Shown here: piece after piece, positions 1 through 13,273 of the stretch
Numbering within the stretch: position 1 is the stretch's first letter
Layout: every line of letters begins with the position of its first letter
From: a virus
Strand: one strand, 5' to 3'
IMG/VR virus record: IMGVR_UViG_3300030090_005147
Span: 1-26,783 of that record
DNA: 26,783 nt
Made by a program: the position numbers and the translations under genes
Notes under the pieces: model-generated
What the model was told of the DNA's origin: nothing
Databases searched by the model: none
Seen by the model: the letters and a program-made list of their open reading frames with translations, nothing else

Positions 1-37
1 TTTTCTTCCAATCACTATTAATGTTTCTGATATCCAT
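1..37 (-). CDS. Partial gene, N-terminus only, runs off left edge
   Basis: An ATG on the minus strand at 37-35 overlaps the stop of the DUF932-like gene in a TAATG junction, the arrangement typical of translational coupling. Twelve codons are visible (MDIRNINSDWKK) and the frame is open to the window edge. The upstream sequence GAGGTGGC could act as a weak ribosome binding site inside the preceding gene. Too little is present to assign a function; it is probably the next gene of the same minus-strand operon. Confidence 0.55.
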   Translation of the reverse strand, partial: MDIRNINSDWKK

Positions 38-885
38 TAAGCCACCTCAATTAATTCTTTATTTGCAAAGTCAATCATTCTATCTGTGACATAAGCATTG
101 TTAGTAAAGTCTGCTTTTGTCTGAGTAGGATTGTGCCACAATACATTAGTGCAGGCATTATAGAAATCCCATACAGTAGCATTGTTATTACCTTTAGTTT
201 CTTTAGAAAAGTTTCTATAGATTTTACCAAATGTACTATCTGATATATTAGGAATAACATTTGTAGCTATTTGTCTAAGCATAGCCTCATCTAAGATTGA
301 TCTATCCATTTCAGAGAATGCACTCATCATATTAGATACTTGATTATCGCTTGAATCAATCAATCCTAAAATCTTTTCTACATCATTTTCCCATTTAGCA
401 TTAGACTTGTCATGTAATATTCTTACACTACCTAATCCATGGTTAGTAACCATACCATTGGTACAGATTAGTCTTTCAAGATGTAATCCTGCTGTAAGAG
501 CTTTACTTCCGTCATAACTATTTAAGAAGTGGAGTCCTAATGCAACAGTATCTCCTAACTTGACACCATTTTCTGAATCAATAGTTTTAGTTTGGTCTTC
601 TGCTGTAGTATACAATCCATACTGTTTACCATTAAAGAATTCTTTCTTTATAGTAAACTTGATTTTTGATTGTGCATTGATATGATTAAACATATCAAAG
701 ACTTGCTGATTACTGACTAACAAGTAGTCACTTCTGACAACACCAACTTCATTCCACTTACCTTTCCCACTCTTACCTGTATCGGTTTGAATAGCAAATG
801 CAGAAGAGCTAGTGCCGTCTGTACCTTGTAAAGATACTTTCCTTATATCAGCATAAGGATTTAATTTAGGTTTTACTTTTTCCAT
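37..885 (-). CDS. DUF932 / phage-plasmid-like protein
   Basis: A 282-residue protein on the minus strand. The middle of the protein (about residues 110-155) reads LHFLNSYDGSKALTAG, then LERLICTNGMVTNH, which matches the signature of the DUF932 (phage/plasmid-like, TIGR03299-type) family: an NS-x-DGS-x-A strand followed by an R-hydrophobic-C-x-N turn. The biochemical role of that family is not established; it occurs in many phages and plasmids, often in early regions. The start at 885 is supported by GGGAGC about 8 nt upstream. The gene follows hairpin 924-960 and its stop overlaps the start of the next minus-strand gene. Family assignment is by pattern recall rather than a profile search, so I am fairly but not fully sure. 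Confidence 0.8.
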   Translation of the reverse strand: MEKVKPKLNPYADIRKVSLQGTDGTSSSAFAIQTDTGKSGKGKWNEVGVVRSDYLLVSNQQVFDMFNHINAQSKIKFTIKKEFFNGKQYGLYTTAEDQTKTIDSENGVKLGDTVALGLHFLNSYDGSKALTAGLHLERLICTNGMVTNHGLGSVRILHDKSNAKWENDVEKILGLIDSSDNQVSNMMSAFSEMDRSILDEAMLRQIATNVIPNISDSTFGKIYRNFSKETKGNNNATVWDFYNACTNVLWHNPTQTKADFTNNAYVTDRMIDFANKELIEVA

Positions 886-923
886 AAGTAATTTGCTCCC
901 TGAATTAATAAATAAATATAAGA

Positions 924-960
924 GTATTAATCTCTCTCACTTGTTTAGAGAGATTAATAC
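924..960. promoter_or_regulatory. Conserved-loop intergenic hairpin 1
   Basis: Perfect 14-bp inverted repeat: left arm GTATTAATCTCTCT (924-937), right arm AGAGAGATTAATAC (947-960), loop CACTTGTTT (938-946). It lies between the 57-aa gene ending at 965 and the start of the DUF932-like gene at 885, about 39 nt before that start. The loop plus closing T-A pair is identical in three other intergenic hairpins of the minus-strand region, whereas the stems differ. No U tract follows on either strand, so a simple intrinsic terminator is unlikely. Confidence 0.85.
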
Positions 961-964
961 GAAC

Positions 965-1138
965 TTAACTACATTTTTTATGTTCTGTATACCATTTAGG
1001 CAACATCACTTTAGGTATGTTTTCTGTACCTAGAATAATCATTGACTGATCCTTGTTTGTGGTTTTTTCTCCACATTTCCTACATATAGGATATTCTTTT
1101 ATCATTGACTCTCGCCATTTTTTAAATGATTTACTCAT
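965..1138 (-). CDS. Small CxxC protein, 57 aa
   Basis: A short gene of 57 codons plus stop. Its ATG (1138-1136) overlaps the TGA of the upstream gene as ATGA, so it is probably translated by coupling. The product starts MSKSFKKWRESMIKEYPICR and contains a CRKCGEK knuckle at residues 19-25 and a further Cys near the C-terminus (HKKCS). A single CxxC with a distant third Cys could bind zinc, but a fourth ligand is not obvious. Function is not recognised. Its stop lies 5 nt from the edge of hairpin 924-960. Confidence 0.72.
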   Translation of the reverse strand: MSKSFKKWRESMIKEYPICRKCGEKTTNKDQSMIILGTENIPKVMLPKWYTEHKKCS

Positions 1139-1425
1139 AAATCTAACCTCATTTGATTTAAGTGAAACTCTTTAGCTTGTTCATGGTTTTCTTGTACCCA
1201 TATTTGTGCTCTTACAGGATCTACTTTAAACCATTGATGAACTAATTCTTCTACAACACCGGGGTATAAGCTAGTGTCTTCGCTTTCATCAAAGTAATCT
1301 GTTATGTCGTATACTAAATCTCTTATTGTTTCTTCAAATTTCTTTTTGCTATTGTCTTGATCTTCTCGCATTTGTTGTTCTGCGATATCTAATTCAATAT
1401 CAAATGTTATTTTTTCGTCATTCAT
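1135..1425 (-). CDS. Hypothetical acidic protein, 96 aa
   Basis: A strongly acidic, mostly helical 96-residue protein (MNDEKITFDIELDIAEQQ at the N-terminus). Residues 26-50 are rich in charged residues, followed by a Trp-containing segment VHQWFKVDPVRAQIWVQENH. The ATG at 1425 is preceded by AAGGAGTAAAT, a good ribosome binding site that overlaps the end of the upstream gene. It is the middle gene of a tightly packed trio (1428-1607, 1135-1425, 965-1138), so these are likely co-translated. No family is recognised; small acidic early phage proteins are often host-takeover factors or inhibitors, but that is only a general expectation. Confidence 0.8.
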   Translation of the reverse strand: MNDEKITFDIELDIAEQQMREDQDNSKKKFEETIRDLVYDITDYFDESEDTSLYPGVVEELVHQWFKVDPVRAQIWVQENHEQAKEFHLNQMRLDL

Positions 1426-1427
1426 AT

Positions 1428-1607
1428 TTACTCCTTATTTAATTCGTATTGATTATCTCTTTCTTCTTCTGTTTTGTACCACATTACATCATCTACTTCT
1501 TCATCAGTAAAAGTTAAAAAGTATATGCCATGTATGTAACCATTGTTATTCCCTTCTAATCCTTCATCATGCCAATTAACTTTTATCATTTTGTGTGACT
1601 GATTCAT
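1428..1607 (-). CDS. Hypothetical small acidic protein, 59 aa
   Basis: A 59-codon gene. ATG at 1607-1605 follows AAAGGAG with 7 nt spacing. The product begins MNQSHKMIKVNWHDEGLE and ends in an acidic stretch (TDEEVDDVMWYKTEEERDNQ). Its stop TAA at 1430-1428 lies inside the ribosome binding site of the next gene (1135-1425). It is the first gene after the intergenic region that contains the terminator at 1902-1942 and hairpin 1638-1676, so it heads its own transcription or processing unit. Function unknown. Confidence 0.72.
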   Translation of the reverse strand: MNQSHKMIKVNWHDEGLEGNNNGYIHGIYFLTFTDEEVDDVMWYKTEEERDNQYELNKE

Positions 1608-1637
1608 TTATTTACTCCTTTATTAATGAATACAAGA

Positions 1638-1676
1638 ATATAAAACTTCTCTCACTTGTTTAGAGAAGTTTTATAT
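1638..1676. promoter_or_regulatory. Conserved-loop intergenic hairpin 2
   Basis: Perfect 15-bp inverted repeat: ATATAAAACTTCTCT (1638-1652) and AGAGAAGTTTTATAT (1662-1676) around the same CACTTGTTT loop (1653-1661) as hairpins 924-960, 2618-2663 and 2907-2945. It lies 31 nt upstream of the 59-aa gene starting at 1607 and downstream (in minus-strand reading) of the terminator at 1902-1942, so it cannot simply be the end of the preceding transcript. A TATAAA box on the minus strand overlaps its outer arm, but no good -35 box accompanies it. Confidence 0.85.
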
Positions 1677-1901
1677 GACAATCATCACGACTGAAATGTT
1701 GGGTCGTTACTTTCCCAATAAAAATTTGCCTGAGCTTGCGAAGGCAAATTTTGATATAAGGGGGGTGGGGTAATTTCGCATTGTCGGTTGCGATACCGAC
1801 CAAAAATTTTTTTATAAAATTGCTAGATTTTATCAAAATGTTTTTGTATTTTGAGGTGGTGATGTTGGGCATGGGGTGATTCCTTTACTGAGCTAAATAA
1901 A
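1677..1901. other. Gene-free spacer with three hairpins
   Basis: No credible gene. An 11-bp hairpin, AAAATTTGCCT (1721-1731) with AGGCAAATTTT (1742-1752), has T runs on both sides and could stop transcription in either direction. A 6-bp GTCGGT/ACCGAC hairpin lies at 1783-1800 and a 7-bp ATAAAAT/ATTTTAT hairpin at 1814-1833. G6 followed by TGGGG occurs at 1760-1770. The loop and right arm of the first hairpin include GCTTGCGAAGGC (1734-1745), repeated exactly at 4114-4125 in the large intergenic region. The motif TTGCGA appears at 1736, 1788 and, just beyond, 1926. Confidence 0.6.
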
Positions 1902-1942
1902 AAAAAACCTAATCGCAAATAACTTTTGCGATTAGGTTTTTT
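1902..1942. terminator. Bidirectional intrinsic terminator
   Basis: Stem CCTAATCGCAAA (1908-1919) pairs with TTTGCGATTAGG (1925-1936) around a 5-nt loop. It is flanked by an A run on the left (1899-1907) and six T on the right (1937-1942), so it works on either strand. It begins 8 nt past the stop of the minus-strand gene 1950-2579 and on that strand ends in a long U run, the classic rho-independent form. Confidence 0.92.
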
Positions 1943-1949
1943 AAGGAAG

Positions 1950-2579
1950 TTATCTTCCTTCTTCTAAGGTTGTTGGTTGTTCTTTTATACTAGCTATTGA
2001 TTTACTGCTTACAGCTTGTTGTTCTTTGTCTGCATTAGCTTGTATCCCAATAGTACCAAAGTATCCTTTTTCTTTTGCGAACATTGCATCTTTTCTATTT
2101 TTATAGATATTAGATTCTTCTGTTCTTTCTTTGATTTCGTTTGGTGACAAGTTTTGTCTTTCTTTCCAAGCGAATGGTACCTTTAGCTCAAGGTATTTAT
2201 CTTTAGCTTTTTGATACTCTCCATTAGTTTTAAAGTCTGTTTGGCTACCTTTTGCAATGGTAGGTTCTACTCTAGCTAACATTTTAAGTGTGTCAGGGTG
2301 TTCAATGTATGTAAAATAGTCGAATGTATATTTGTCATAAGGCTCAATACTTTCTTCAGGTAATTTACCTGCATAGTTTACTAATCTCCTAGTATTACCA
2401 AATCCTACATATACATTATAGAATTCTTCTTCATGTACCTTACCAAGTTCTCCATTAGCTTTTAGCCAATAATGTTTACCTTCTACTTCTTTGGTAGCAG
2501 GTACCCAACCAACAGTCACTTTTTCTCCACGTGCTACTGCTCTGATAGGTCGTTTGAATTTTGTTTCTGAGTTACTCAT
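1950..2579 (-). CDS. Hypothetical protein, 209 aa
   Basis: A 209-residue protein with a strong ribosome binding site (AAGGAG, 8 nt before the ATG at 2579). The first 125 residues look like a folded alpha/beta domain with many aromatic residues (HYWLKANGELGKV, YNVYVGFGNTRRLVNYAG, FDYFTYIEHPD). The C-terminal third is charged and Gln/Ser rich, likely a flexible helical tail. No motif allows a confident family. It is the last gene before the terminator at 1902-1942 and is preceded by hairpin 2618-2663. Base composition matches its neighbours. Confidence 0.85.
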   Translation of the reverse strand: MSNSETKFKRPIRAVARGEKVTVGWVPATKEVEGKHYWLKANGELGKVHEEEFYNVYVGFGNTRRLVNYAGKLPEESIEPYDKYTFDYFTYIEHPDTLKMLARVEPTIAKGSQTDFKTNGEYQKAKDKYLELKVPFAWKERQNLSPNEIKERTEESNIYKNRKDAMFAKEKGYFGTIGIQANADKEQQAVSSKSIASIKEQPTTLEEGR

Positions 2580-2617
2580 ATTTTTTCTCCTTATTTTTTT
2601 AATTAATAATAACCCAT

Positions 2618-2663
2618 GAAAGTAATAGTAACTTTCACTTGTTTATAAGTTACTATTACTTTC
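2618..2663. promoter_or_regulatory. Conserved-loop intergenic hairpin 3
   Basis: Perfect 17-bp inverted repeat: GAAAGTAATAGTAACTT (2618-2634) and AAGTTACTATTACTTTC (2647-2663). Between them lies T-CACTTGTTT-A plus one extra T, so the conserved 11-nt core TCACTTGTTTA is intact (2635-2645). The hairpin sits between genes 2679-2894 and 1950-2579, 39 nt upstream of the latter's start, the same spacing as for hairpin 924-960. Confidence 0.85.
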
Positions 2664-2678
2664 TTTTTAATCATCACT

Positions 2679-2894
2679 TTAGTTATTCTTTTTACTAAGT
2701 TGAACAGGGTACCTTTCATCATGTACCCAACAATTTTGTGAGTAACATAAGTTACAGGTATCGATTAGTAATTCATGTTTACTATAATCTGTATAGTATG
2801 ATTTCTCTATTTCCCAATCAGTTAGTAAAGGTTTTTGATTGACATGATGCTGATTGCTTTCAGTTATGTCTATATAATCTCTAATTGTTTTCAT
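2679..2894 (-). CDS. Small Cys-containing protein, 71 aa
   Basis: A 71-residue protein (MKTIRDYIDITESNQHHVNQ at the start). Near residues 46-55 it carries TCNLCYSQNCW, a C-x2-C-x4-C arrangement, with several His residues nearby (HH at 16-17, HE and HD later), so a small zinc knuckle is possible. The ATG at 2894 follows AAGGAGAT. The gene is flanked by conserved-loop hairpins on both sides (2907-2945 upstream, 2618-2663 downstream) and so forms a single-gene unit. Function not recognised. Confidence 0.78.
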   Translation of the reverse strand: MKTIRDYIDITESNQHHVNQKPLLTDWEIEKSYYTDYSKHELLIDTCNLCYSQNCWVHDERYPVQLSKKNN

Positions 2895-2906
2895 TTTATC
2901 TCCTTA

Positions 2907-2945
2907 GAATTAAATTATTGTCACTTGTTTATAATAATTTAATTC
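2907..2945. promoter_or_regulatory. Conserved-loop intergenic hairpin 4
   Basis: GAATTAAATTATT (2907-2919) pairs perfectly with AATAATTTAATTC (2933-2945). The stem continues through one G-T pair (2920/2932) and one T-A pair (2921/2931) to the invariant CACTTGTTT loop (2922-2930). The right arm contains the stop codon of gene 2939-3229, and the hairpin ends 13 nt upstream of the start of gene 2679-2894. The G-T pair would be an A-C mismatch in the minus-strand RNA. Confidence 0.82.
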
Positions 2946-3229
2946 GTTTTTGAATTAACTTTATTTAAAAACACTTGAATCTTTTTCAAGTAGAATTGGT
3001 ACCAATAAGATTTCTTGAATGTTTCTAGGTACCATTTGTTGTCTGCATAAGGGGGGTTATCCCTAGTCCACTTACCTTCTTCGTCAAGTAGTTTGTAGAG
3101 TAATTTGGGGGTGAGTGGGTCATTCTGAATATCCTTACACATTTGACATTGTATAAATGTTGCTTTAGGATATTCAGGAAAACAGGCACAATTACCTAAT
3201 ACTCCGTAGTATGATTTTTGTTCAGTCAT
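2939..3229 (-). CDS. Small zinc-ribbon-like protein, 96 aa (paralogue of 3622-3849)
   Basis: I chose the start at 3229 (MTEQKSYYGVLGNC) because GGAGTTAAAA lies directly upstream; an in-frame extension to 3340 has no ribosome binding site and would overlap the upstream gene heavily. The protein carries NCACF at residues 13-17 and FIQCQMCKD at about 25-33, i.e. C-x-C followed by C-x2-C, enough ligands for one zinc. The same order (NCxC, then FIxCxxCK) occurs in the product of 3622-3849, which suggests a duplicated family. The C-terminal part is rich in aromatic and basic residues (WYLETFKKSYWYQFYLKK). Role unknown. Confidence 0.8.
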   Translation of the reverse strand: MTEQKSYYGVLGNCACFPEYPKATFIQCQMCKDIQNDPLTPKLLYKLLDEEGKWTRDNPPYADNKWYLETFKKSYWYQFYLKKIQVFLNKVNSKTN

Positions 3230-3629
3230 TTTTAACTCCTTTGTAATATGTACTTTTAAATTCTCCATTGTATTCAGTACAAGCAATACAGGTATAAACT
3301 TCTGCAATTTCATTGACCATGTCGTCATGATCAAAGCCACAGTTTATACCATTGTTCATGCCATACTCACAGCCGTATTCTTCGTAATGAAGTTCGTCTG
3401 ACGTGTATATTTCACACTTACAATTTTCATTGATTGGTACCCATACTATGTAAGTTGATTCATCTATAATTTGGTATTCATAGAAGTCCATTGCTATTGC
3501 ACATTCAAGGTCAGTAGCATATTTACCATATATTTTATTAGTTTCATCAACCATTTTTTGATACTTTTTTATTTCAGTTTCAGTTAGGAATCTTTTTTCT
3601 AACATCACGCCATTAATTTTCTTAGTCAT
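3222..3629 (-). CDS. Hypothetical Cys-rich acidic protein, 135 aa
   Basis: A 135-residue protein starting MTKKINGVMLEKRFLTETEI, with the ATG at 3629 preceded by TTTAGGAGAATTAA. Cysteines cluster in the second half: NCKCEIY (about 73-79), GCEYG and NCGFDHDD, then YTCIACTEYNG near the C-terminus, so one or two metal sites are possible. Its stop overlaps the start of 2939-3229 by 8 nt, and its own start overlaps the stop of 3622-3849 by 8 nt, giving a coupled three-gene cassette. No family recognised. Confidence 0.83.
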   Translation of the reverse strand: MTKKINGVMLEKRFLTETEIKKYQKMVDETNKIYGKYATDLECAIAMDFYEYQIIDESTYIVWVPINENCKCEIYTSDELHYEEYGCEYGMNNGINCGFDHDDMVNEIAEVYTCIACTEYNGEFKSTYYKGVKND

Positions 3630-3849
3630 TTAATTCTCCTAAATTGAATAAGGTTAATATTTCATCTTGTTCGGATTTACTTGCTTGCTTAAATTCTTCT
3701 GAATTCATAAGTAAGAATAGTTCGTCAGCGTCTTTACACTTGCATGACTCACATTTTATAAAGTCAGGCATATAGACATTTTCTTCAGGGTGCCACTCAC
3801 TATCCCAATAGCAATTACAATTATTAATAGTTCTCAGTTTGTTGTTCAT
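3622..3849 (-). CDS. Small zinc-ribbon-like protein, 75 aa
   Basis: A 75-residue protein and the first gene of the minus-strand set. ATG at 3849 follows AAAGGAGGAAGAT, one of the best ribosome binding sites in the window. It reads INNCNCYWDSEWHPE near the N-terminus and FIKCESCKCKDADELF at about residues 31-46: C-x-C plus C-x2-C-x-C. The spacing of motifs and the flanking residues mirror the product of 2939-3229, so the two are probably paralogues. The C-terminal half is helical and acidic. Role unknown; a nucleic-acid or protein-binding zinc knuckle is the simplest inference. Confidence 0.82.
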   Translation of the reverse strand: MNNKLRTINNCNCYWDSEWHPEENVYMPDFIKCESCKCKDADELFLLMNSEEFKQASKSEQDEILTLFNLGELND

Positions 3850-4020
3850 ATCTTCCTCCTTTAGGAATTTTATTTTTAATAAAACAAAAACTTAATTTTT
3901 TAAGAAGCAACGAGGGGGGTGGAGTGGAAGAGTTAAGACATTGCGATATTAAGCCTATGGTGGGGAAATGGAAAGGTTGAGTTTTGCTTATGGATTTAGC
4001 CTACCATGGAGCATAGACAG

Positions 4021-4076
4021 ACCTTCATTCTCAGACCATCTTACGCGAATGCGTTAGAAGGTAAGAGATTGAAGGT
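4021..4076 (+). repeat. Long imperfect hairpin, 24-nt arms, GAAT loop
   Basis: ACCTTCATTCTC (4021-4032) pairs with GAGATTGAAGGT (4065-4076) with one T-T mismatch. After a 2x2 internal loop, ACCATCTTACGC (4035-4046) pairs with GCGTTAGAAGGT (4051-4062) with two mismatches. The apical loop is GAAT (4047-4050). A GAC/GTC helix (4016-4018/4079-4081) and an 8-bp GTTTTGCT/AGCAAAAC helix (3981-3988/4085-4092) continue the stem outward. Confidence 0.8.
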
Positions 4077-4173
4077 AAGTCATTAGCAAAACCTTCCATT
4101 TGAAGGCCTTCCTGCTTGCGAAGGCCATCATAGGATAGCAATCCTGTGGATTGGCTCCATTCCATTTTCGGCT

Positions 4174-4308
4174 CTGACAAATTTAAATTGCACAAAGATG
4201 GAAGTAGTAAAATGTGCAATTCGTGTCAGGAAATCCTACTTACAGGATAAGCCTGACGCGAACTTGTACATTTTATCTGCTTAGCTCGACTGCAATTTAA
4301 ATTTTCAG
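4174..4308 (+). repeat. 135-nt palindromic element with three stacked stems
   Basis: The outer stem is CTGACAAATTTAAATTGCA (4174-4192) with TGCAATTTAAATTTTCAG (4291-4308): 18 bp with one bulged C. Fifteen-nt internal loops on each side follow. The second stem is TAAAATGTGCAA (4208-4219) with TTGTACATTTTA (4264-4275), and the third is TTCGTGTCAGG (4220-4230) with CCTGACGCGAA (4252-4262), separated by one bulged C at 4263. The apex is ATCCT/AGGAT (4233-4237/4244-4248) with loop ACTTAC. Both imperfect pairs in the long arms are G-T on the plus strand. Such a structure is far beyond chance; it may be an RNA domain, a cruciform or a replication-related site. Confidence 0.85.
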
Positions 4309-4738
4309 ATGCTATTCTGTGAGCACGTTACTGCGAACTCTTCGCGATTTTTACCAAAAACCCCCTTCAGGGGGCCGAGGAACTCGTGTCGCGTCCAATT
4401 GCCATCAAGGGGGGCTTGGGGTTTTCCATATGCCTTTAAATCTATAGTGGTGGGGTTTGAAGGCAATAGGTGGGGTTAATAATTCATTCCAAAAATACTA
4501 TTGAATTTTAAGCCTTGCGAATCCAATTCGTTTTTTTTGTTTCTTTTTTTTGCGAATAGGTATCGCGATAAATCTCCAAAAAAAAGAAAATTGATTTAAG
4601 AATCGCTTTAGCGATATAGGAAAGTGTTTTCCGTAAGAGTCTAGCTTACATATAGCTACGCTTGTTGCTTTTAGCTTTAAATAATATATAGCAAACAATT
4701 CAAACACTATAAAAAATAGTGCAACCGATGTTGCTGTG

Positions 4739-4762
4739 AATAGCTAAAGTGGTTTAGCTATT
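4739..4762 (+). repeat. Perfect 10-bp hairpin with GTGG loop
   Basis: AATAGCTAAA (4739-4748) and TTTAGCTATT (4753-4762) around GTGG. It directly follows a two-hairpin junction (CACTAT/ATAGTG at 4705-4721, GCAAC/GTTGC at 4721-4734 with CGAT loop) closed by ATTCA/TGAAT (4698-4702/4737-4741). The last helix competes with this hairpin for 4739-4741, so alternative folds are possible. Confidence 0.75.
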
Positions 4763-4801
4763 TAATCAATCAACCATGCAACAAAGAAACAAGAGAGAGG
4801 G

Positions 4802-4857
4802 GGTATGTCTTAACAAATCTGCAAATGGGCTATACATACCTATGACAGATTTTTTTT
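4802..4857 (+). terminator. Pseudoknot or attenuator-like structure ending in T8
   Basis: GGTATGT (4802-4808) is complementary to ACATACC (4834-4840), and AAATCTG (4815-4821) to CAGATTT (4846-4852). The segments interleave a-b-a'-b', so they form either an H-type pseudoknot or two mutually exclusive hairpins. The second is followed by the rest of a run of eight T (4850-4857), as in an intrinsic terminator with a large loop. This is the best plus-strand transcript end in the gene-free region. Confidence 0.55.
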
Positions 4858-4880
4858 GCAAAGTGGACTTGCTATGGCTG

Positions 4881-4967
4881 TAGCTATTATATAGCTAATT
4901 GCTCTCCCTCTTATGGGGAGAGCAAAGCTAATTATGGTATTCTTCTCTCGCTATAGCATTATATAGC
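4881..4967. repeat. AGCTA-rich hairpin cluster
   Basis: Three hairpins in 87 nt: TAGCTAT/ATAGCTA (4881-4897, loop TAT); TTGCTCTCCC/GGGAGAGCAA (4899-4925), extended by TAGCT/AGCTA (4892-4896/4926-4930) with a bulged AA; and GCTATA/TATAGC (4950-4967). AGCTA or TAGCT recurs many times between 4650 and 4970, and the palindrome TAGCTA occurs at 4881 and 4892. Iteron-like binding sites or an RNA junction are both possible; no U run follows. Confidence 0.6.
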
Positions 4968-5013
4968 TATATTGCAAAGCGTGTCAATACAAGGAAGGCT
5001 TGAAAAATGAACG

Positions 5014-5075
5014 GATAGGGGGGAATTGTTTAGAATAGATAATTATATGTGAATATTTATTATGTTCCCCCTATC
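5014..5075. repeat. G/C-run inverted repeat flanking a 39-nt AT-rich core
   Basis: GATAGGGGGGAA (5014-5025) is complementary to TTCCCCCTATC (5065-5075) apart from one extra G. The 39 nt between are almost entirely A and T except for isolated G. It sits immediately upstream of the late promoter. GC clamps around an easily melted segment fit a DNA-unwinding or regulatory site, but function is inferred only. Confidence 0.65.
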
Positions 5076-5088
5076 ACGAGAGAAAGAG

Positions 5089-5117
5089 TTGACTATGTGA
5101 GTCAACAATATTATTAT
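5089..5117 (+). promoter_or_regulatory. Sigma-70-type late promoter with overlapping operator-like palindrome
   Basis: TTGACT (5089-5094), a 17-nt spacer and TATTAT (5112-5117) match the bacterial sigma-70 consensus at 5 of 6 positions in each box with ideal spacing, predicting a start near 5124. A perfect hairpin GTTGACT-ATGTG-AGTCAAC (5088-5106) covers the -35 box and could be a repressor or activator operator. AGGAGG at 5127-5132 then leads into terS at 5141. This promoter would drive the packaging and head genes. Confidence 0.75.
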
Positions 5118-5140
5118 ATTGTAAGTAGGAGGACAGGTCA

Positions 5141-5581
5141 ATGGCGTTTAGTGACAAAGAAAAAGTAGAATTAAAGAAGAAATTTTTAAAGGCATTTGGT
5201 AAATCTAGAACAATATCGAGTGCTGTTAGTGGGTTACCTGTAGGCAGGAACTCAATATATGAATGGTTCAAGGAAGATTCAGACTTTAAGCAGGAATTTG
5301 ACGATGCAAAGCTAGCAGTTGGGGAAAGTTTAGAGAGTACAGCTTTTACTTTGATAGACAAGATGTTACAAAGTGGAGATTATTCTAGACCCTTACTGTT
5401 AATAACCATGTTAAATGCCCACTTACCTGAAAGATATAAAGCAGGTGACAACACAGGTGATGATTCTAGACAACTTATTTCTGAATTTAGGAAGATGGCT
5501 AAGAGTAATAAGGAAAAAAAGCCTAAAACTAAAGTTGAAAAAGAAGCCGAGGACATAATTAATGACTCAACCACAAAATGA
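5141..5581 (+). CDS. terS: Terminase small subunit
   Basis: A 146-residue protein at the head of the late operon. The N-terminal half shows the helix-turn-helix layout of phage small terminases: a basic helix (KEKVELKKKFLKAFGK), then LPVGRNSIYEWFKEDSDF, the recognition-helix pattern with a conserved Trp, then EFDDAKLAVGESLES. The middle (LIDKMLQSGDYSRPLLLITMLNAHLPERYK) resembles the oligomerisation region. The C-terminus is Lys/Glu rich and likely disordered. TerS binds the packaging site on phage DNA and regulates the large subunit. ATG at 5141 has an AGGAGG site 8 nt upstream. Its last 20 nt overlap terL. Identification rests on motif pattern and on position immediately before terL. Confidence 0.85.
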   Translation: MAFSDKEKVELKKKFLKAFGKSRTISSAVSGLPVGRNSIYEWFKEDSDFKQEFDDAKLAVGESLESTAFTLIDKMLQSGDYSRPLLLITMLNAHLPERYKAGDNTGDDSRQLISEFRKMAKSNKEKKPKTKVEKEAEDIINDSTTK

Positions 5582-6902
5582 ATTAACTGATTTCCTTTAC
5601 GAGAAAGTAGGGTTTGAACCTACTGACGAGCAAAGGGTAATATTAGATTCAGATAAAAGGTTTACACTTGTAGCAGGTGGGGAACAAGCAGGAAAAAGCA
5701 TGATCGCTAGTAAATTTCTGCTTAGAAAGATATTTGAAACAGAAGAACCGGGGTTATATTGGCTAGTTGCTGCTGATTACGGCAGAACTAGAGCAGAATT
5801 TGAATATTTAATAGAAGATTTTGCTAAATTAAACCTATTAAAGAAGGCATCTAAGAGAGTAGATCCGGGCAGAATAGAACTTGCTGATGGAACAGTTATT
5901 GAAACTAAGTCTGCTAAAGATCCTCGTACTCTAGCTATGAGAGCACCCAATGGAATTGTAGGTTGTGAGGCTAGTCAGCTAGATTTAGAAAGTTATTACA
6001 GAGTAAGAGGTAGATGTGCACCTAGAAGTGCATGGTTATTTTTAGCAGGAACATTTGAAGGTAGCCTTGGTTGGTACCCTTCGTTGTTTCAGGCATGGAA
6101 ATACGGAGATAAAGACGAGAAATCTTTTTCCCTGCCCTCTTATACGAATAAACATTTATATCCGGGAGGCAAAAATGACCCTGAAATACAAAAGCTTAAA
6201 AATGAAGCTAGTGATGATTTCTTTATGGAAAGGATTGAAGGTATTCCTTCTCCACCTACGGGAATCGTATTCCAAGAATTCAGAAGTGATAGACATATAT
6301 CAGAAAAAGCTAGCTATGTACCGAATGAACCCGTCCACTTGTGGATCGACCCGGGTTATGCAGGCGGCTATGCTATCGAGGCGATACAGATCAGCGATGA
6401 TCAAGTTAGACTTATCGACGAAGTCTACGAAAAGTCCCTCATTACAGAAGAAATGATTAACATTTGTCAGAATAGAGAATGGTGGAGTGATGTACAATTT
6501 GGGGTAATTGATGTGGCAGGGTATCAGCATCAGGCTATGGCTGCTCCTGCAGAAGTTTGGTTAAATGAAACAGGCTTGTACCTTGATTCTCAGAAAGTTA
6601 AGATCAATGATGGTACAGAAAAATTAAAATCTATGTTAAAATTAGCTCCAAACGGAGAACCTAGATTAATAATTAACCCTAAATGCAAGGGAATCTTATC
6701 AGAGTTTGGTGCAGCTCCAAATCCATTTAATGGACAGACACTTGTGTACAAGTGGAAGACAGATAGAGATGGAAATATAGTTGGCAATCAGCCTGAAGAT
6801 AAGTATAATCATGGAATAAAAGCCGTAATCTATGGTTTGATAAACCATTTTGGTTATGCACATATAGAAAATAGAACATCAATCCGTGTAAGGAGATGGT
6901 AA
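5562..6902 (+). CDS. terL: Terminase large subunit (packaging ATPase-nuclease)
   Basis: A 446-residue DNA-packaging motor. The ATPase domain has a Walker A loop GGEQAGKS at residues 39-46, a strand ending LYWLVAADYGR (65-75), a GIVGCEAS strand (131-138) in the Walker B area, and LFLAGTFEG (159-167) as the coupling motif. The C-terminal RNase H-like nuclease domain shows WIDPGYAGGYAI (261-272), with catalytic Asp263, and VIDVAGYQ (315-322), with Asp317. A third acid is probably Asp413 in DKYNHGIKAVIYGL. Length is at the short end of the usual 430-600 residues. The ATG at 5562 lies within terS, so the genes are translationally coupled. TerL docks on the portal encoded next door. Confidence 0.95.
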   Translation: MTQPQNELTDFLYEKVGFEPTDEQRVILDSDKRFTLVAGGEQAGKSMIASKFLLRKIFETEEPGLYWLVAADYGRTRAEFEYLIEDFAKLNLLKKASKRVDPGRIELADGTVIETKSAKDPRTLAMRAPNGIVGCEASQLDLESYYRVRGRCAPRSAWLFLAGTFEGSLGWYPSLFQAWKYGDKDEKSFSLPSYTNKHLYPGGKNDPEIQKLKNEASDDFFMERIEGIPSPPTGIVFQEFRSDRHISEKASYVPNEPVHLWIDPGYAGGYAIEAIQISDDQVRLIDEVYEKSLITEEMINICQNREWWSDVQFGVIDVAGYQHQAMAAPAEVWLNETGLYLDSQKVKINDGTEKLKSMLKLAPNGEPRLIINPKCKGILSEFGAAPNPFNGQTLVYKWKTDRDGNIVGNQPEDKYNHGIKAVIYGLINHFGYAHIENRTSIRVRRW

Positions 6903-8714
6903 ATGGCAAAAGCTAGTTATAAACCTGAAAGAATAATAGATAAAGTAGAGAGTCACTATGATGCTACTGAACCATTAAGAAACAGAATGGACAGAGATTT
7001 TTCTCTTTACAGATTAGACCCATATGATGCAGGTGACGGCTACCAATCCTACACATCTAACGAACCTTCTACTTATGCAGATAAAATAATTTCATTTGTT
7101 ACAGGAAGTGAAATGGTAGCAAGGATTCCCAATGTTTCTGAAAAAGAAGAAGACAGGGAAAAGAATAATAAAAAAGAAAAATTCTTTCTAGGCATCTTAA
7201 AAAGTGCTGACGAAAGAATCAAACGACATTCTATGCCTTCGATTAAAAACCAACTAGCTTGGTATATTACATTAAGAGGTTGGTATGCAGGTAGAGCTTT
7301 ACTTGTAAAAGACAAAGATGAAGATACTTATGTAGATATTACACCTTGGGATCCAATGCACACATATTGGGGACTTGGCAGCGAAGGGCTAGAGTGGGCT
7401 TGTTATAAAGTTAAAAAATCTAAAGACTTAGTTGAAAGCCAATACAATATCAGACTTCCAAGAAACGAAGATTATGATGACGAAGATTGGATAGATGTAT
7501 ATGATTATTACGATAAAGAAATGAACACAGTAGTTCTTTCTAACGGAAGAGTAGCTAAGAAACCTACTCCTCACGGAGCAGACGAGGTGCCTGTATTTTT
7601 GGGGCCTGTGGGGTCAGCTCCCATGATACAGGCTCTCAATGATATGACTCCTATTGATGACACGATTGCTGATTATGGAGAATCTATTTATAAACATAAT
7701 AGAGAAAATTACGAAAAGAATAATCAGATAATGTCTATTATGCTAGAGTTAACTTCCCGTGCTAGAAGACAAGGATTAAAAATTACTTCTAGAGATGGAA
7801 CTAAAACTTTAGATGAGGATCCTTACAAGGAAGGTACAGAAATATCCTTGGCACAAGGCGAGAATGTAGAACCATTAGGATTAATGGAAGTAGCTAGAGA
7901 AACAGGATCCTTTATGGGATTAATCTCAGGAGAAATGCAAAGAGGTGGAGTACCACATACACTTTACGGAGATATACAATTTCAATTATCAGGATTTGCA
8001 ATTAATACTTTAAGGCAAGGTATTGATTCTATTATATCTCCTAGAATAGAAGCACTTGAAAATGCTTATAAAAAAATATGTATGATAATATTTGATCAGT
8101 ATATGTCTGAATCCTTTGACAGCATGGAGTTGTCAGGTCAGGATATGAACAGACAATACTTTAAAGAAAAAATAAGTCCTAAAGATATAGAAGGCACAGG
8201 TGATATTGAAATAACATTTGTAGGACAACTACCTCAAGATGATTTGACTAAGATGAATATGGCTCAAATAGCTAGAGATGGTGAAAGTCCATTGTTACCT
8301 GATATATTTATTAGAGATAAAATTCTTGGATTACAAGATACAGATATGATAGATGACGCTATTAAAGAACAAACAGCAGAAAGGATATTACCTGAAGCTG
8401 CACTTTGGACTTTACTACAATCAGCAGAAGATAGAGGCAGACCCGACCTTGCTCAGTTCTACTATGGTGAACTTATTACTATGATGAACGAAAAGCAAAC
8501 AAAACGATTACAATCAGAACAACAGTTGCAACAAGCAGCCCAACCTCCACAGCCACAACAGCCTAGAGGCATGGATCCTAGAGTAATGCCTAATGCAATG
8601 GCAGGTGCACCTCCACCACAACCCACACCTCCTCAAGGAATGGTAGCACCCGGAACTCCAAGACCCGGAGCAATGAGTGATGAAGAACGAATTAGAAGAC
8701 AAGCATTAAGATAG
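6903..8714 (+). CDS. Portal protein
   Basis: A 603-residue protein immediately after terL; its ATG abuts the terL stop and GGAGATGG precedes it. The N-terminus (residues 1-65) has the helical, DxY-rich opening usual for portals (RMDRDFSLYRLDPYDAGDGY). A long central region contains wing and stem-type helices, including IADYGESIYKHNRENYEKNN and the segment GEMQRGGVPHTLYGDIQFQL, typical of podovirus-type portals. The last 70 residues are Pro/Gln rich (PPQPQQPRG, PPPQPTPPQG) and probably disordered. The portal forms the dodecameric DNA gate that binds terminase and later the tail. The assignment relies on position, size and sequence style, not a profile match. Confidence 0.85.
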   Translation: MAKASYKPERIIDKVESHYDATEPLRNRMDRDFSLYRLDPYDAGDGYQSYTSNEPSTYADKIISFVTGSEMVARIPNVSEKEEDREKNNKKEKFFLGILKSADERIKRHSMPSIKNQLAWYITLRGWYAGRALLVKDKDEDTYVDITPWDPMHTYWGLGSEGLEWACYKVKKSKDLVESQYNIRLPRNEDYDDEDWIDVYDYYDKEMNTVVLSNGRVAKKPTPHGADEVPVFLGPVGSAPMIQALNDMTPIDDTIADYGESIYKHNRENYEKNNQIMSIMLELTSRARRQGLKITSRDGTKTLDEDPYKEGTEISLAQGENVEPLGLMEVARETGSFMGLISGEMQRGGVPHTLYGDIQFQLSGFAINTLRQGIDSIISPRIEALENAYKKICMIIFDQYMSESFDSMELSGQDMNRQYFKEKISPKDIEGTGDIEITFVGQLPQDDLTKMNMAQIARDGESPLLPDIFIRDKILGLQDTDMIDDAIKEQTAERILPEAALWTLLQSAEDRGRPDLAQFYYGELITMMNEKQTKRLQSEQQLQQAAQPPQPQQPRGMDPRVMPNAMAGAPPPQPTPPQGMVAPGTPRPGAMSDEERIRRQALR

Positions 8715-8723
8715 GAGAAATTA

Positions 8724-11700
8724 ATGGATCCAAATAGTTATTATGAAGTACAACCATCAGGATTAGGAACAACAGCAGGACTAGGAGCTTCCGATTTAGG
8801 AGTTGATTCTAATGCTTTAGTTACATTAATTAAAGCAGGATCTAGAGCTTTCTTGCCGGCATTATTTCCGGGAGCCGTAGATTCCCCGGGACTTGATCCC
8901 AAAGGTTTTGAATTAAAAGGAGCAAGCCTTCCTGTAGTAATAAAATTCCCTTCAGATTTCACAGCTCAAGATAGATATAATTGGTATCAAAAATATAATT
9001 TTGCTAATATAAATGGAGCTGCTCAAGGGCAATTTAAAACAGACATTGAAAATGCTTACAGACAATTAGGGTGGAGTACAGATTACGGAAGAAAATGGGA
9101 AATGGGAAGTGGCAAAAACGAAATTCCTGTTATTGATGCAATGACACTAAAAATAGCAACAACAGAAGAAGTTCAAGATGATCGAGGCAGAATAGTACAA
9201 AAAGCTATTCCCGAAACAATAAAACGAGGCGAGTCTGTTAATTGGGGAGCTACTTTAGCTCAAGGCGATCCTCAGGAATGGCCTGTAGGAGCTATGATAA
9301 AAAAAGAATTACCCAAAATGTTTGGGAAATCTCCTTCTACTTCAGATATGGGATCAAGATATGTTTCAGATGATAAAGACCAACAAATTCCTGCATTAGT
9401 AGATCTTACTCAACATATGCCATATGGCCCCAACCTTGGATCTTTAGTTCTTCCTTTTGGAAAAAAAGCAACACCATCTATTAGTGCTGCTCCTGCAGAT
9501 ATGCCACCAACACCATTAGGTGGAATGTCCCCTGCTACTTTTGCTGAAGGAACTGAAATGATTACAGAAAGGCCAAGTCAAGTTTTTTCAGATGCTCTTC
9601 GAAATCCGTATACTCAGCGAATTGAAACAGAATTAGGATTGCCACAATATCAATCGCAACAAGCTTACATGGATCAAAACAGAGATCTTGTAAAACAATT
9701 TTTAATGTCTTCTGCAGAGGAGGGTGGTTATAACCTTAAGGGAATAGATGACGGAACTATAGACTTTGATTTTGAAATGGACGAAAACGGAAGACTTATT
9801 ACTTTAGATGTTTATAGAGTTAAAGATGGAGTAAGAGATTCAAAACCTTACTTACAAAATATTACAAGTGAAGGAACTGCAGATACAGTAAACGAAAAAT
9901 TTACTACATTTAAACAATTTGCATTAACACAAGACCCAACTAAACCTGCAGATGGATTGCCGTCAGGAACATTTTCTGCAACAGGAGCATGGGCAGTTCC
10001 CGGATTTCCACAAACAAAAGTTCCAACAACATTTGGAGCAACAGGTGCAGCAGGAATGCCAACTCCCGGAATTATTACAGGGTCTGAGCAACAACAGTTA
10101 TTAGCAAGAATGTACCCTAGTGAATATGCTGCAGCTTTACCTGCATCATTGCAGGGAGGTGCATCATCTGCAATAAGAGATTTGTATAGCACTCCAATTT
10201 CTATGGCACAACGAGGATATAATTTAGCAACAATGACAGGAGCTTTTCAACCTCAACAAATTGCAGGAGGATTGGGAGGATTTGGTTTTCAACAATATTT
10301 AGGAAGTCAGCCTAATTACATACAAGACTTGCAAAGAGGCATACAAGCTATTGATCAAGTACGGCAAAAATATTTGGCTCAAGGACAAAGCACACAAGGA
10401 TTTAGTCTTCCTGAATTGAGTATATTTGAAAACTATATTGATAAGCCTGAAGAAGAATTAAAACTAAGACAAAGTTTATCTGCTTTATTGCCTTACCAAA
10501 TGAGAACTGCATATTCAAGAAATTTGCAAAATATGTATGATAGAGCAAGGCTACAAAATCCTTCTTCTATTGCAAGAAGGCAATTTGATTTTAATATGGG
10601 ATTTAATCCGTTTGGATCTATAAGTCCTATGCAAATGCAAGCACCTACTCCACAAAGACCTACTGCAGAAATCCCAATAGGGCAAAGTGTAAATATGGAC
10701 ACTTCAACTGACAATACTGCAGTTACAGGAACAGGGGTTACAAAAACTACAGCTTCAGATGGATCAACGATTACATTTACTCCTAGTGGAGATGGAGTAA
10801 CATCTACTGCTACAGTTAGTCAAACCGAACCTAAATCTTTAGGAGGAACAAGAAGAGAACTTTATGGTGACGGATATGCTATGGTGCAAAGAGATAACAA
10901 CGGAAACATAATTCAAGTGTATCAAATAGAAGCAGATGGCAGTAAAAAAATTATTAGAGATATAAAAACAGATGTTGCGGGAGCTGATGCACAAAAAACA
11001 GCATCTGATCTTGAAGCAAAATTAGCAAAAGAACCTAAAAGTTCTTTTACAGGAGATCCCGGAAAAAGATTCCCAACAGGAGCTCCGCCAACAGAAGTTC
11101 CAAAAGTATTTGGAGATGTATCTAAATATACTAAAACCCCTTCTCCTGCCCCTGCTAAAACTCCTATGTATCAAGGGCAAAAGAATTTGCCTGCAAATTA
11201 TATGGACTTTATAACAGGAGGAAGATCGGGAACTACTCCAACTTCTACAATGGAAAATATAGGAGCTGCAGATATGCCACAAGGCTTAGGTGTAAGTGCT
11301 ATGGAAGGAATAGGACTTGGATCACCTACTATGAAAGTAGCTTCACCAATGGTTGCTCCGCCCGGAGTCGTTGGGTCAAGGGTTTCAGATGTAGGAAGTA
11401 TAGGAGCACTTGTTAAATCTCCTTATGCTAATCAATTTACAGGCCCCACACAAATGATTCCTGAAAATATACCTATGCCTCCACCTCCAAGAGTTGATAA
11501 AACAGCACTAGAGTTAGATGCAATGAGGCGAAAAGCATTAGAAGATATGACTCGAATGCCTGTAGGAGCTTACAAAGGATCTCCGTATATAATAGGAGGA
11601 GTAAGTAATCCTAATGCACTTGCAATACAAGCACAGTTAGCAAAAGAAAAGTTAAGACAAGATTTTGAAACAGGTAATTTAAATTTTCCAATGAAAAAAC

Positions 11701-11774
11701 CATTTGAATTACAAGGAATAGGAATAGTACCTGAATGGTATGCACCACAAAACAATAGAATATTAATGAGATAA
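8724..11774 (+). CDS. Large putative virion protein, 1016 aa
   Basis: A 1016-residue protein 9 nt after the portal stop with an AGGAG site. No known domain is recognised. Residues 1-130 look ordered (SRAFLPALFPGAVDSPG, then DFTAQDRYNWYQKYNF). Much of the rest is rich in Pro, Gly, Ala, Gln and Thr with low-complexity stretches (GTFSATGAWAVPGFPQTK, APTPQRPTAEIPIGQ), as in extended or flexible virion proteins. A short beta-like segment near 745-785 (ELYGDGYAMVQRDNNGNIIQ) resembles repeat modules found in structural proteins. It belongs to the 10-kb block between portal and scaffold and is co-directional with the structural genes, so a minor head, internal virion or ejection protein is the best guess. 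Glycine is mostly GGA here, unlike the GGT-rich capsid gene. Confidence 0.85.
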   Translation: MDPNSYYEVQPSGLGTTAGLGASDLGVDSNALVTLIKAGSRAFLPALFPGAVDSPGLDPKGFELKGASLPVVIKFPSDFTAQDRYNWYQKYNFANINGAAQGQFKTDIENAYRQLGWSTDYGRKWEMGSGKNEIPVIDAMTLKIATTEEVQDDRGRIVQKAIPETIKRGESVNWGATLAQGDPQEWPVGAMIKKELPKMFGKSPSTSDMGSRYVSDDKDQQIPALVDLTQHMPYGPNLGSLVLPFGKKATPSISAAPADMPPTPLGGMSPATFAEGTEMITERPSQVFSDALRNPYTQRIETELGLPQYQSQQAYMDQNRDLVKQFLMSSAEEGGYNLKGIDDGTIDFDFEMDENGRLITLDVYRVKDGVRDSKPYLQNITSEGTADTVNEKFTTFKQFALTQDPTKPADGLPSGTFSATGAWAVPGFPQTKVPTTFGATGAAGMPTPGIITGSEQQQLLARMYPSEYAAALPASLQGGASSAIRDLYSTPISMAQRGYNLATMTGAFQPQQIAGGLGGFGFQQYLGSQPNYIQDLQRGIQAIDQVRQKYLAQGQSTQGFSLPELSIFENYIDKPEEELKLRQSLSALLPYQMRTAYSRNLQNMYDRARLQNPSSIARRQFDFNMGFNPFGSISPMQMQAPTPQRPTAEIPIGQSVNMDTSTDNTAVTGTGVTKTTASDGSTITFTPSGDGVTSTATVSQTEPKSLGGTRRELYGDGYAMVQRDNNGNIIQVYQIEADGSKKIIRDIKTDVAGADAQKTASDLEAKLAKEPKSSFTGDPGKRFPTGAPPTEVPKVFGDVSKYTKTPSPAPAKTPMYQGQKNLPANYMDFITGGRSGTTPTSTMENIGAADMPQGLGVSAMEGIGLGSPTMKVASPMVAPPGVVGSRVSDVGSIGALVKSPYANQFTGPTQMIPENIPMPPPPRVDKTALELDAMRRKALEDMTRMPVGAYKGSPYIIGGVSNPNALAIQAQLAKEKLRQDFETGNLNFPMKKPFELQGIGIVPEWYAPQNNRILMR

Positions 11775-12742: not shown

Positions 12743-13273
12743 ATGGCAAAAATATTTTATGAAGCAGGAGCAACTCCATACCAACAAGGAACAACTTGGG
12801 GAGCAACAAATCCTGATACAGGAAAACCTTGGGGGTGGAAGCCGCCTGTTAAAAAGAAAAACACGGGGTTTAATATTGGATTAGATACTTATTCTGATGC
12901 CTCTAATATATCTGATATATCCACAGACATAGGAAATCCTTTTAAAGATTATTTACCACAAGAGTTTTTAGAAACATCTCCTAGTGCTGCATACTACAGT
13001 TCACCCGGAGCAGCAGAATTTTACACTAGACCATCAGGACAAGTAGATCCTACAAGAAAAAAGTTTTATCAAGAATCCTTTCAAGATATCTACAATGAAT
13101 ATCTTGGAAGATTAGGAACTATGGCTAGAAAAGGAGATGTGCCTGACTTAAGATTTTCAGATTATTTATCTTCTGCAGATCCTTTTACAGAAAGATTTGA
13201 AAGACAAACTCCTTATCAAAGAGGAATAAGCAATAGAGCTTATTCTCCGTCAACTAGGTTTATATACTATTAA
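12743..13273 (+). CDS. Putative virion protein, 176 aa
   Basis: A 176-residue protein starting MAKIFYEAGATPYQQG, with AGGAAA before the ATG. The N-terminal third is Gly/Trp/Lys rich (WGATNPDTGKPWGWKPPVKK), the rest Tyr/Ser/Pro rich with an amphipathic segment (KKFYQESFQDIYNEYLGRL). Its TAA overlaps the ATG of the 1824-residue gene (TAATG), so the two are coupled and their products may be made in fixed ratio. No known family. Confidence 0.8.
   Translation: MAKIFYEAGATPYQQGTTWGATNPDTGKPWGWKPPVKKKNTGFNIGLDTYSDASNISDISTDIGNPFKDYLPQEFLETSPSAAYYSSPGAAEFYTRPSGQVDPTRKKFYQESFQDIYNEYLGRLGTMARKGDVPDLRFSDYLSSADPFTERFERQTPYQRGISNRAYSPSTRFIYY

Follow-up and report, generated by a model that had tools for sequence, protein, structure and literature searches.

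Intergenic hairpins with a constant loop on unrelated stems in the early region of an uncultured tailed phage

The early region and its hairpins

The window, that is, the whole stretch of DNA analyzed here, comprises 26,783 bases and comes from an uncultured virus (IMG/VR record IMGVR_UViG_3300030090_005147). Its plus strand carries a late module with the small and large terminase and the major head protein (PHROGs), which marks it as a tailed phage, and the minus strand carries a set of small early genes. Our subject is a family of four hairpins, J1–J4, which fill the four gaps between the minus-strand gene blocks (Table 1).

A sequence-only reading of the window had reported these hairpins, and their coordinates and core proved exact. 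It described the stems as 13–17 bp long, near-perfect, and mutually unrelated, and our measurements agree: the stems are free of mismatches, with small defects only beside the loop (an A-C in J4 and a bulged A in J3). The loop AAACAAGTG, read on the gene strand, is the same in all four. The constant part had been given as 11 nt; it is real and is 9 nt long, since the flanking T/A varies in relatives. This 9-mer occurs four times in the window, every time inside a hairpin, and the RNA folds of the four have z-scores of -3.8 to -7.1. If perfect stems of 12 bp or more with a loop of at most 15 nt are counted, the whole window contains five, namely J1–J4 and a terminator-like structure at 1902–1942. 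Shuffled sequence yields essentially no such stems (a mean of 0.005 stems of at least 13 bp in 200 dinucleotide shuffles of positions 1–5140).

The hairpins are confined to gaps between early genes on the same strand, always in one orientation, and a ribosome binding site stands between each hairpin and the start codon. That they lie close before a start was correctly seen, with measured spacings of 12–38 nt in place of the 13–39 nt first given. They were also said to occupy every true gap, which is so for the four minus-strand gaps and not for the large divergent region (3850–5140), where there is none.

Table 1. Coordinates of the hairpins and neighboring features, with the contigs in which each junction bears a constant-loop hairpin
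Feature	Position	Strand	Description	Contigs
Hairpin J1, before DUF932 gene	924..960	-	14-bp stem; loop AAACAAGTG; 38 nt before DUF932 start; 4 nt past upstream stop codon; -16.4 kcal/mol, z -5.8	window, G001, G010, L118
Hairpin J2, before 96-aa gene	1638..1676	-	15-bp stem; loop AAACAAGTG; 30 nt before 59-aa gene start; z -6.1	window, G001, G010, L118
Hairpin J3, before 209-aa gene	2618..2663	-	17-bp stem and bulged A; loop AAACAAGTG; 38 nt before 209-aa gene start; z -7.1	window, G001, L044, G010, L026
Hairpin J4, before 71-aa gene	2907..2945	-	13-bp stem; loop AAACAAGTG; 12 nt before 71-aa gene start; overlaps upstream stop codon; z -3.8	window, G001, L044, L006
Hairpin J5, before 75-aa gene	outside window; G001 27541-27583		with AAACAAGTA in G001	G001, L118, L178/L205
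DUF932 gene	37..885	-	downstream of J1; Pfam PF06067, E 2.4e-19	
209-aa protein gene	1950..2579	-	downstream of J3; function unknown	
71-aa gene	2679..2894	-	downstream of J4	
Terminator-like stem and U-tract	1902..1942	-	after 209-aa gene; unrelated to the hairpin family	
Predicted +1 of early transcript	4944..4951	-	GCGAGAGA; start placed from the -10 position	
Sigma70-type early promoter, consensus	4958..4987	-	TTGACA-18-TATAAT; conserved in relatives	
Second sigma70-type promoter	5113..5141	-	TTGACC-17-TATAAT; toward early genes; conserved in relatives	

None of J1–J4 is followed by a U-tract on the gene strand, and the terminator scan lists 1902–1942 and none of the four, so we rejected an intrinsic terminator. 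A search of the window and five related loci against Rfam gave no match above the gathering score, and no description of such a hairpin family was found in a literature search of open-licence papers.

Conservation in related contigs

A terminase search yielded 80 related contigs, in which the constant loop recurs at five orthologous gene junctions. The fifth, J5, lies about 190 nt ahead of the start of a 75-aa gene. All twelve copies of the 11-mer TAAACAAGTGA in 780 kb of related sequence, the window included, lie inside hairpins, and hairpins are conserved at the equivalent junctions of relatives, the two checks proposed along with the original description. Orthologous junctions keep the hairpin while both sides of the stem change, which upholds the view of a selected hairpin family as opposed to a copied repeat, a class that we rejected because the stems are unrelated. 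A covariance model run over 521 kb gave no further sites, apart from reverse-strand echoes and one chance match. When viral contigs were scanned with a pattern, 97 stretches were returned and the hairpin-bearing ones all came from this clade; outside it, the 9-mer was not in such a hairpin in the unrelated contigs matched by the pattern (11-mer plus AAGGAG). One 47-kb sequence (G021, L276–L278), whose first 7.4 kb (reversed) are 99% identical to G001 and whose remainder is 72–76% identical, is a recombinant or a chimeric assembly, and it was used for no junction claim beyond J5.

The loop had been called invariant, and across relatives this fails. L201 (same record as L100) encodes a DUF932 protein 93% identical to that of the window and a 375-aa ATPase identical to that of G001; four of the same junctions bear perfect 15–19 bp hairpins in this contig, with loops GTAAAACG, ATATTGC, ATTAAAATG, and TTATCGTG. 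Perfect hairpins also stand in three early gaps of L020 (loops CGACATAGCGA, TAGC, and ACATGGTG), and L014 has one perfect hairpin at J2 with the loop AATT. Since hairpins with other loops stand at kept junctions, the position of the hairpin has been retained more broadly than its loop. No such hairpin was found at J1 of L018, L010, L013, L019, and L024.

Three other structures were seen in these relatives. In some that lack the hairpins, a 66-nt element (L018 2403–2468, minus strand; also L013, L019, L010, L024, and L206) with a 12-bp outer stem and a nearly invariant interior occupies the gap ahead of the 96-aa gene, or the gap equivalent to it in position; L101, which bears the same copy, gave no Rfam match. 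Directly past J5 of G001 (L086 7587–7672) lies an 86-nt structured RNA with a 14-bp outer stem and two inner helices, which covaries in L201 and L118, has G-U pairs on the gene strand, and has no Rfam match. L019 carries tandem hairpins at 6296–6333 and 6364–6399 with the identical loop ATACAGTC on different stems, in the leader region and at no gene junction.

The distribution of one early protein bears on whether the hairpins could be translational operators, with a phage protein binding the loop, controlling ribosome access, and so timing several early genes jointly. The 209-aa protein is present in every constant-loop contig that covers its region and was not found in L201, where the loops differ; the position of J1–J4 just before start codons, with the ribosome binding site in between, would also suit an operator. 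On the other hand, these binding sites lie outside the stems, the J5 hairpin is far from the start of its gene, and the 209-aa protein has no recognized RNA-binding domain and only a poor AlphaFold model (pLDDT 58). We consider this account unlikely.

Comparison of the junctions also brings out exchange of genes. Upstream of J4, the window, G001, and L044/L006 carry unrelated genes, and their homology sets in within about 10 nt of the hairpin edge; at J3, the sequence of L044 is different from about 20 nt upstream; and at J2, the leader and the 96-aa gene are separated by an inserted 59-aa gene. These comparisons are a small sample. One could read the hairpins as cassette borders that mark or promote early-gene exchange, as do the promoter early stem-loops (PeSLs) of T4-like phages, yet gene borders tolerate any exchange and any intergenic point could serve. 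Ordinary homologous recombination would need more than the shared 9 nt, no recombinase that uses such a site was found, and the conserved loop near ribosome binding sites would be left unexplained. We hold it to be very unlikely that exchange is what the hairpins are for.

Covariation and template switching

When 11 distinct hairpins, paralogous and orthologous ones mixed, are placed in register, 96.8% of the pairs are standard and both sides have changed in 13 of 14 pairs. The covariation score is 0.906, as against 0.259 for shuffled sequence and at most 0.167 for slid registers, so the suggested covariation check bore out the pairing. The cleanest orthologous case is J3 of G010 versus L026, where five compensated pairs surround the same loop and the downstream leader and coding sequence are 88% identical. 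A palindromic DNA operator was rejected, as the arms vary at 13 of 14 pairs while the loop is constant. An A-T pair located nine positions from the loop is invariant, and the 5' arm is pyrimidine-rich near the loop; these features may take part in recognition or may be due to common ancestry among some of the stems.

There is not a single G-U pair among the 149 paired cells of the constant-loop set. Two neighboring structured elements, namely the RNA that follows J5 and the 66-nt element at J2, have G-U in 17 of 173 cells on the gene strand (Fisher p about 2e-5, for cells that are non-independent). The lack of G-U may point to a function at the DNA level or to template-switch repair of short inverted repeats. 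Template switching yields double changes in one step, repairing both arms (PMC8794818), and it also inverts spacers (PMC8604942). The compensating stems, which had been taken as the mark of selection, are thus present and are weaker evidence than was claimed.

Template switching could by itself make and keep perfect inverted repeats, the hairpin being an unselected by-product. Perfect stems, the want of G-U intermediates, new stems in close relatives, a documented mechanism (PMC8794818), and what may be an inverted loop in L010 relative to L013 all fit this proposal. It does not explain one invariant, oriented loop at five unrelated junctions, nor the restriction to early leaders; moreover, such repair would invert loops too (PMC8604942), yet none of the constant loops is ever inverted, a point in favor of selection on the loop that depends on its orientation. 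We find a pure by-product highly improbable. The L010/L013 pair (8386–8432 and 8537–8582, respectively) consists of orthologous hairpins with the same stem and seemingly inverted loops (CTAAGTG versus CACTAAG, one change), a possible spacer inversion by template switching.

The other explanation of the exclusively Watson-Crick stems is a hairpin read by a protein in DNA, as an extruded cruciform or in single-stranded form, and serving as an initiation site in the manner of the early promoters of phage N4. The 149 of 149 Watson-Crick cells, unlike the neighboring RNA structures, would accord with this, as would the constant loop in one orientation. The N4 parallel, raised by the sequence-only reading, is nevertheless weak: an N4 promoter has a stem of at most 7 bp and a 3-base loop and needs the virion RNA polymerase, and its stem positions vary if pairing is kept (PMC4496689). 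With stems of 13–18 bp and a loop of 9 nt, we rejected the N4-type architecture here. A Pfam search of 10 records for a phage RNA polymerase gave no match, which carries no information, as the family matched no control genome either; the 1824-aa virion protein (see below) is unmatched. Ordinary sigma70 promoters are present, and template switching explains perfect stems without any DNA function (PMC8794818). A role in DNA strikes us as quite unlikely.

Early promoters and the predicted transcript start

Two tandem sigma70-type promoters point toward the early genes, and one or both occur in all 14 contigs listed, in one of two sequence types (TTTGCWATATAGCTATATAAT or TTTTTGCTATTGCAGTATAAT). 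Junction hairpins are present in all eight contigs that share the promoter type of the window and cover at least 1.7 kb of the early region. Contigs of the other type have none at junctions, and the hairpins of L010, L013, and L019 lie in the long leader region or elsewhere. On the terminase tree the promoter labels need three changes, and the link between promoter and hairpin may be one of common descent. Two consensus sigma70 promoters, the lack of a U-tract, and the lack of a recognized phage RNA polymerase make promoter and terminator readings of the hairpins weak.

Transcription from the promoter at 4958..4987 is predicted to start at G4951, in GCGAGAGAAG. The octamer at this start resembles the loop end and 3' arm of J1 and J2, GTGAGAGA, and in several hairpins this part reads GYGAGAGA, similar to the predicted early 5' end. 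Five copies of the 8-mer RYGAGAGA are present in the window: one is at the early start, one lies upstream of the late promoter (5076, plus strand), J1 and J2 have one each, and the last is in coding sequence. In L020, the 11-mer ATAGCGAGAGA is common to the predicted early start region and the loop and arm of a hairpin. The copy by the late promoter, ACGAGAGAAAGAG (5076–5083, plus strand), abuts the -35 on its upstream side, is kept in G010 and L020, and is like the early start region and some hairpin arms.

The terminator-like structure at 1902–1942 raises the question of antitermination, in which a hairpin in nascent RNA would load a factor on the host RNA polymerase for read-through of the early operon. 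This strong terminator lies inside the operon with no recognizable promoter behind it, and the plan of a constant loop on a variable stem is shared with boxB-like sites. Leader hairpins act in antitermination with LoaP (PMC12691694). There is, however, one terminator only among four or five hairpins, and a single loading site would suffice, yet a hairpin with a 13–18 bp stem stands at every block. No boxA holds a constant position: the likeness of CTCTCTAAACA to boxA is limited to J1 and J2 and is missing in J3, J4, and G010, and was rejected. Antitermination is, in our judgment, improbable as the role of the hairpins.

A proposed role in early messages

The hairpins look like selected signals. 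Our preferred reading, with a probability of about 0.38, is that they are RNA leader or intercistronic elements, read through the loop, that serve 5'-end definition or stability. As cis elements of the early transcript they might act as follows. The host RNA polymerase would start at the two upstream promoters and, to judge from the sequence, read through several gene blocks. In the RNA, a hairpin would precede each block, and a putative factor of phage or host, either protein or RNA, would bind its loop AAACAAGUG together with the first, purine-rich part of the 3' arm. The constancy of the loop suggests such a factor. Either processing or a block to decay would then probably give every downstream message a 5' end that is defined and protected. 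We propose a role at 5' ends because the loop end and 3' arm GUGAGAGA resemble the predicted early 5' end, which suggests that each block is given a similar one. Stems would be free to change if pairing is kept, and copies would thereby stay dissimilar within one genome; L201, L020, and similar contigs would have retained the hairpins and changed the loop.

Several points weigh against this proposal. The likeness to the start region is weak in J3, J4, and J5 (GTGAAAG, GTGACAA, and GTAGAGA), and it is for this reason that our confidence stands no higher than the figure given. L201 retains hairpins with four dissimilar loops, zero G-U pairs are odd for a purely RNA-level element, and no loop-binding factor was identified. 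A small-RNA partner was rejected, as neither the window nor G001 has a full complement of the loop (CACTTGTTT) at any other place on the gene strand; 7-mers of the complement turn up only at scattered positions, and G010 lacks the one found in the early leader (CTTGTTT at 4793, minus strand).

A bolder version would make each early block begin with a perfect hairpin, a code at the DNA or RNA level, whose fixed loop and 3' arm imitate the primary early start, such that one phage-specific factor treats every block as its own 5' start. Stems would be kept unlike while genes are exchanged at the borders, and loops would differ between close relatives as if the key had been changed. We offer this as a speculation that is probably wrong.

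Other genes and a host hint

No tRNA genes were found. In the interval from the large terminase to the predicted major head protein, the plus strand of the window encodes proteins of 1824 aa (13273–18747) and 1016 aa (8724–11774), neither of which has a match in Pfam, PHROGs, or PDB sequences. When the terminase was aligned against bacterial genomes, the sole matches were three Chloroflexota metagenome-assembled genomes (L273, L274, and L275; 39–40% identity), a weak hint at the host. We do not name Chloroflexota as the host, since these terminase relatives are too distant and the assembled genomes too GC-rich.

Comparison with known systems

The early RNase III sites of T7, the other parallel drawn by the sequence-only reading, likewise are stem-loops that separate genes in an early operon transcribed by the host, where they are expected to set the ends of the RNAs, and the gene map and upstream promoters place our hairpins between genes of a putative polycistronic early transcript, as T7-type sites require. 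The parallel is weak, because an RNase III site needs no constant loop. To our knowledge, the T7 sites show no constant loop over unrelated stems; the stems described here are also short, perfect, and without internal bulges. No phage RNase III was found in a search whose control was positive.

N4 early promoters share a small family of hairpins with conserved loop bases before early genes; the present hairpins differ from them in stem and loop length, in the accompanying sigma70-type promoters, and in the lack of a recognized polymerase. The PeSLs of T4-like phages, as cited in PMC4503421, are intergenic stem-loops of the early region at the borders of exchanged genes, and in this they resemble J4, J3, and J2. 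PeSLs combine a strong sigma70 promoter with a terminator, whereas the hairpins of the window are accompanied by neither; we rejected the class, given that transcription of the downstream genes cannot be assigned to any promoter-like site scoring at least 9/12 at the four junctions. The boxB of lambda nut, HK022 put, and LoaP leader hairpins are, like our candidates, RNA hairpins read by loop or structure that act on an operon, but they have much shorter stems or another architecture and few copies per operon, and no boxA or NusG paralogue was identified here.

If our preferred reading is true, a small phage without a recognized RNA polymerase of its own would set the ends or output of many early messages with one compact, repeatable signal, in a lineage for which no cultured relative was found. 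The separation of loop from stem lends itself to clean designs for tests of loop recognition, and the set, in which perfect stems are rewritten fast with one loop held, is a direct case for the question of template switching versus selection. The element belongs with the early-operon stem-loops of phages, among which the constant loop on free stems is its distinguishing mark.

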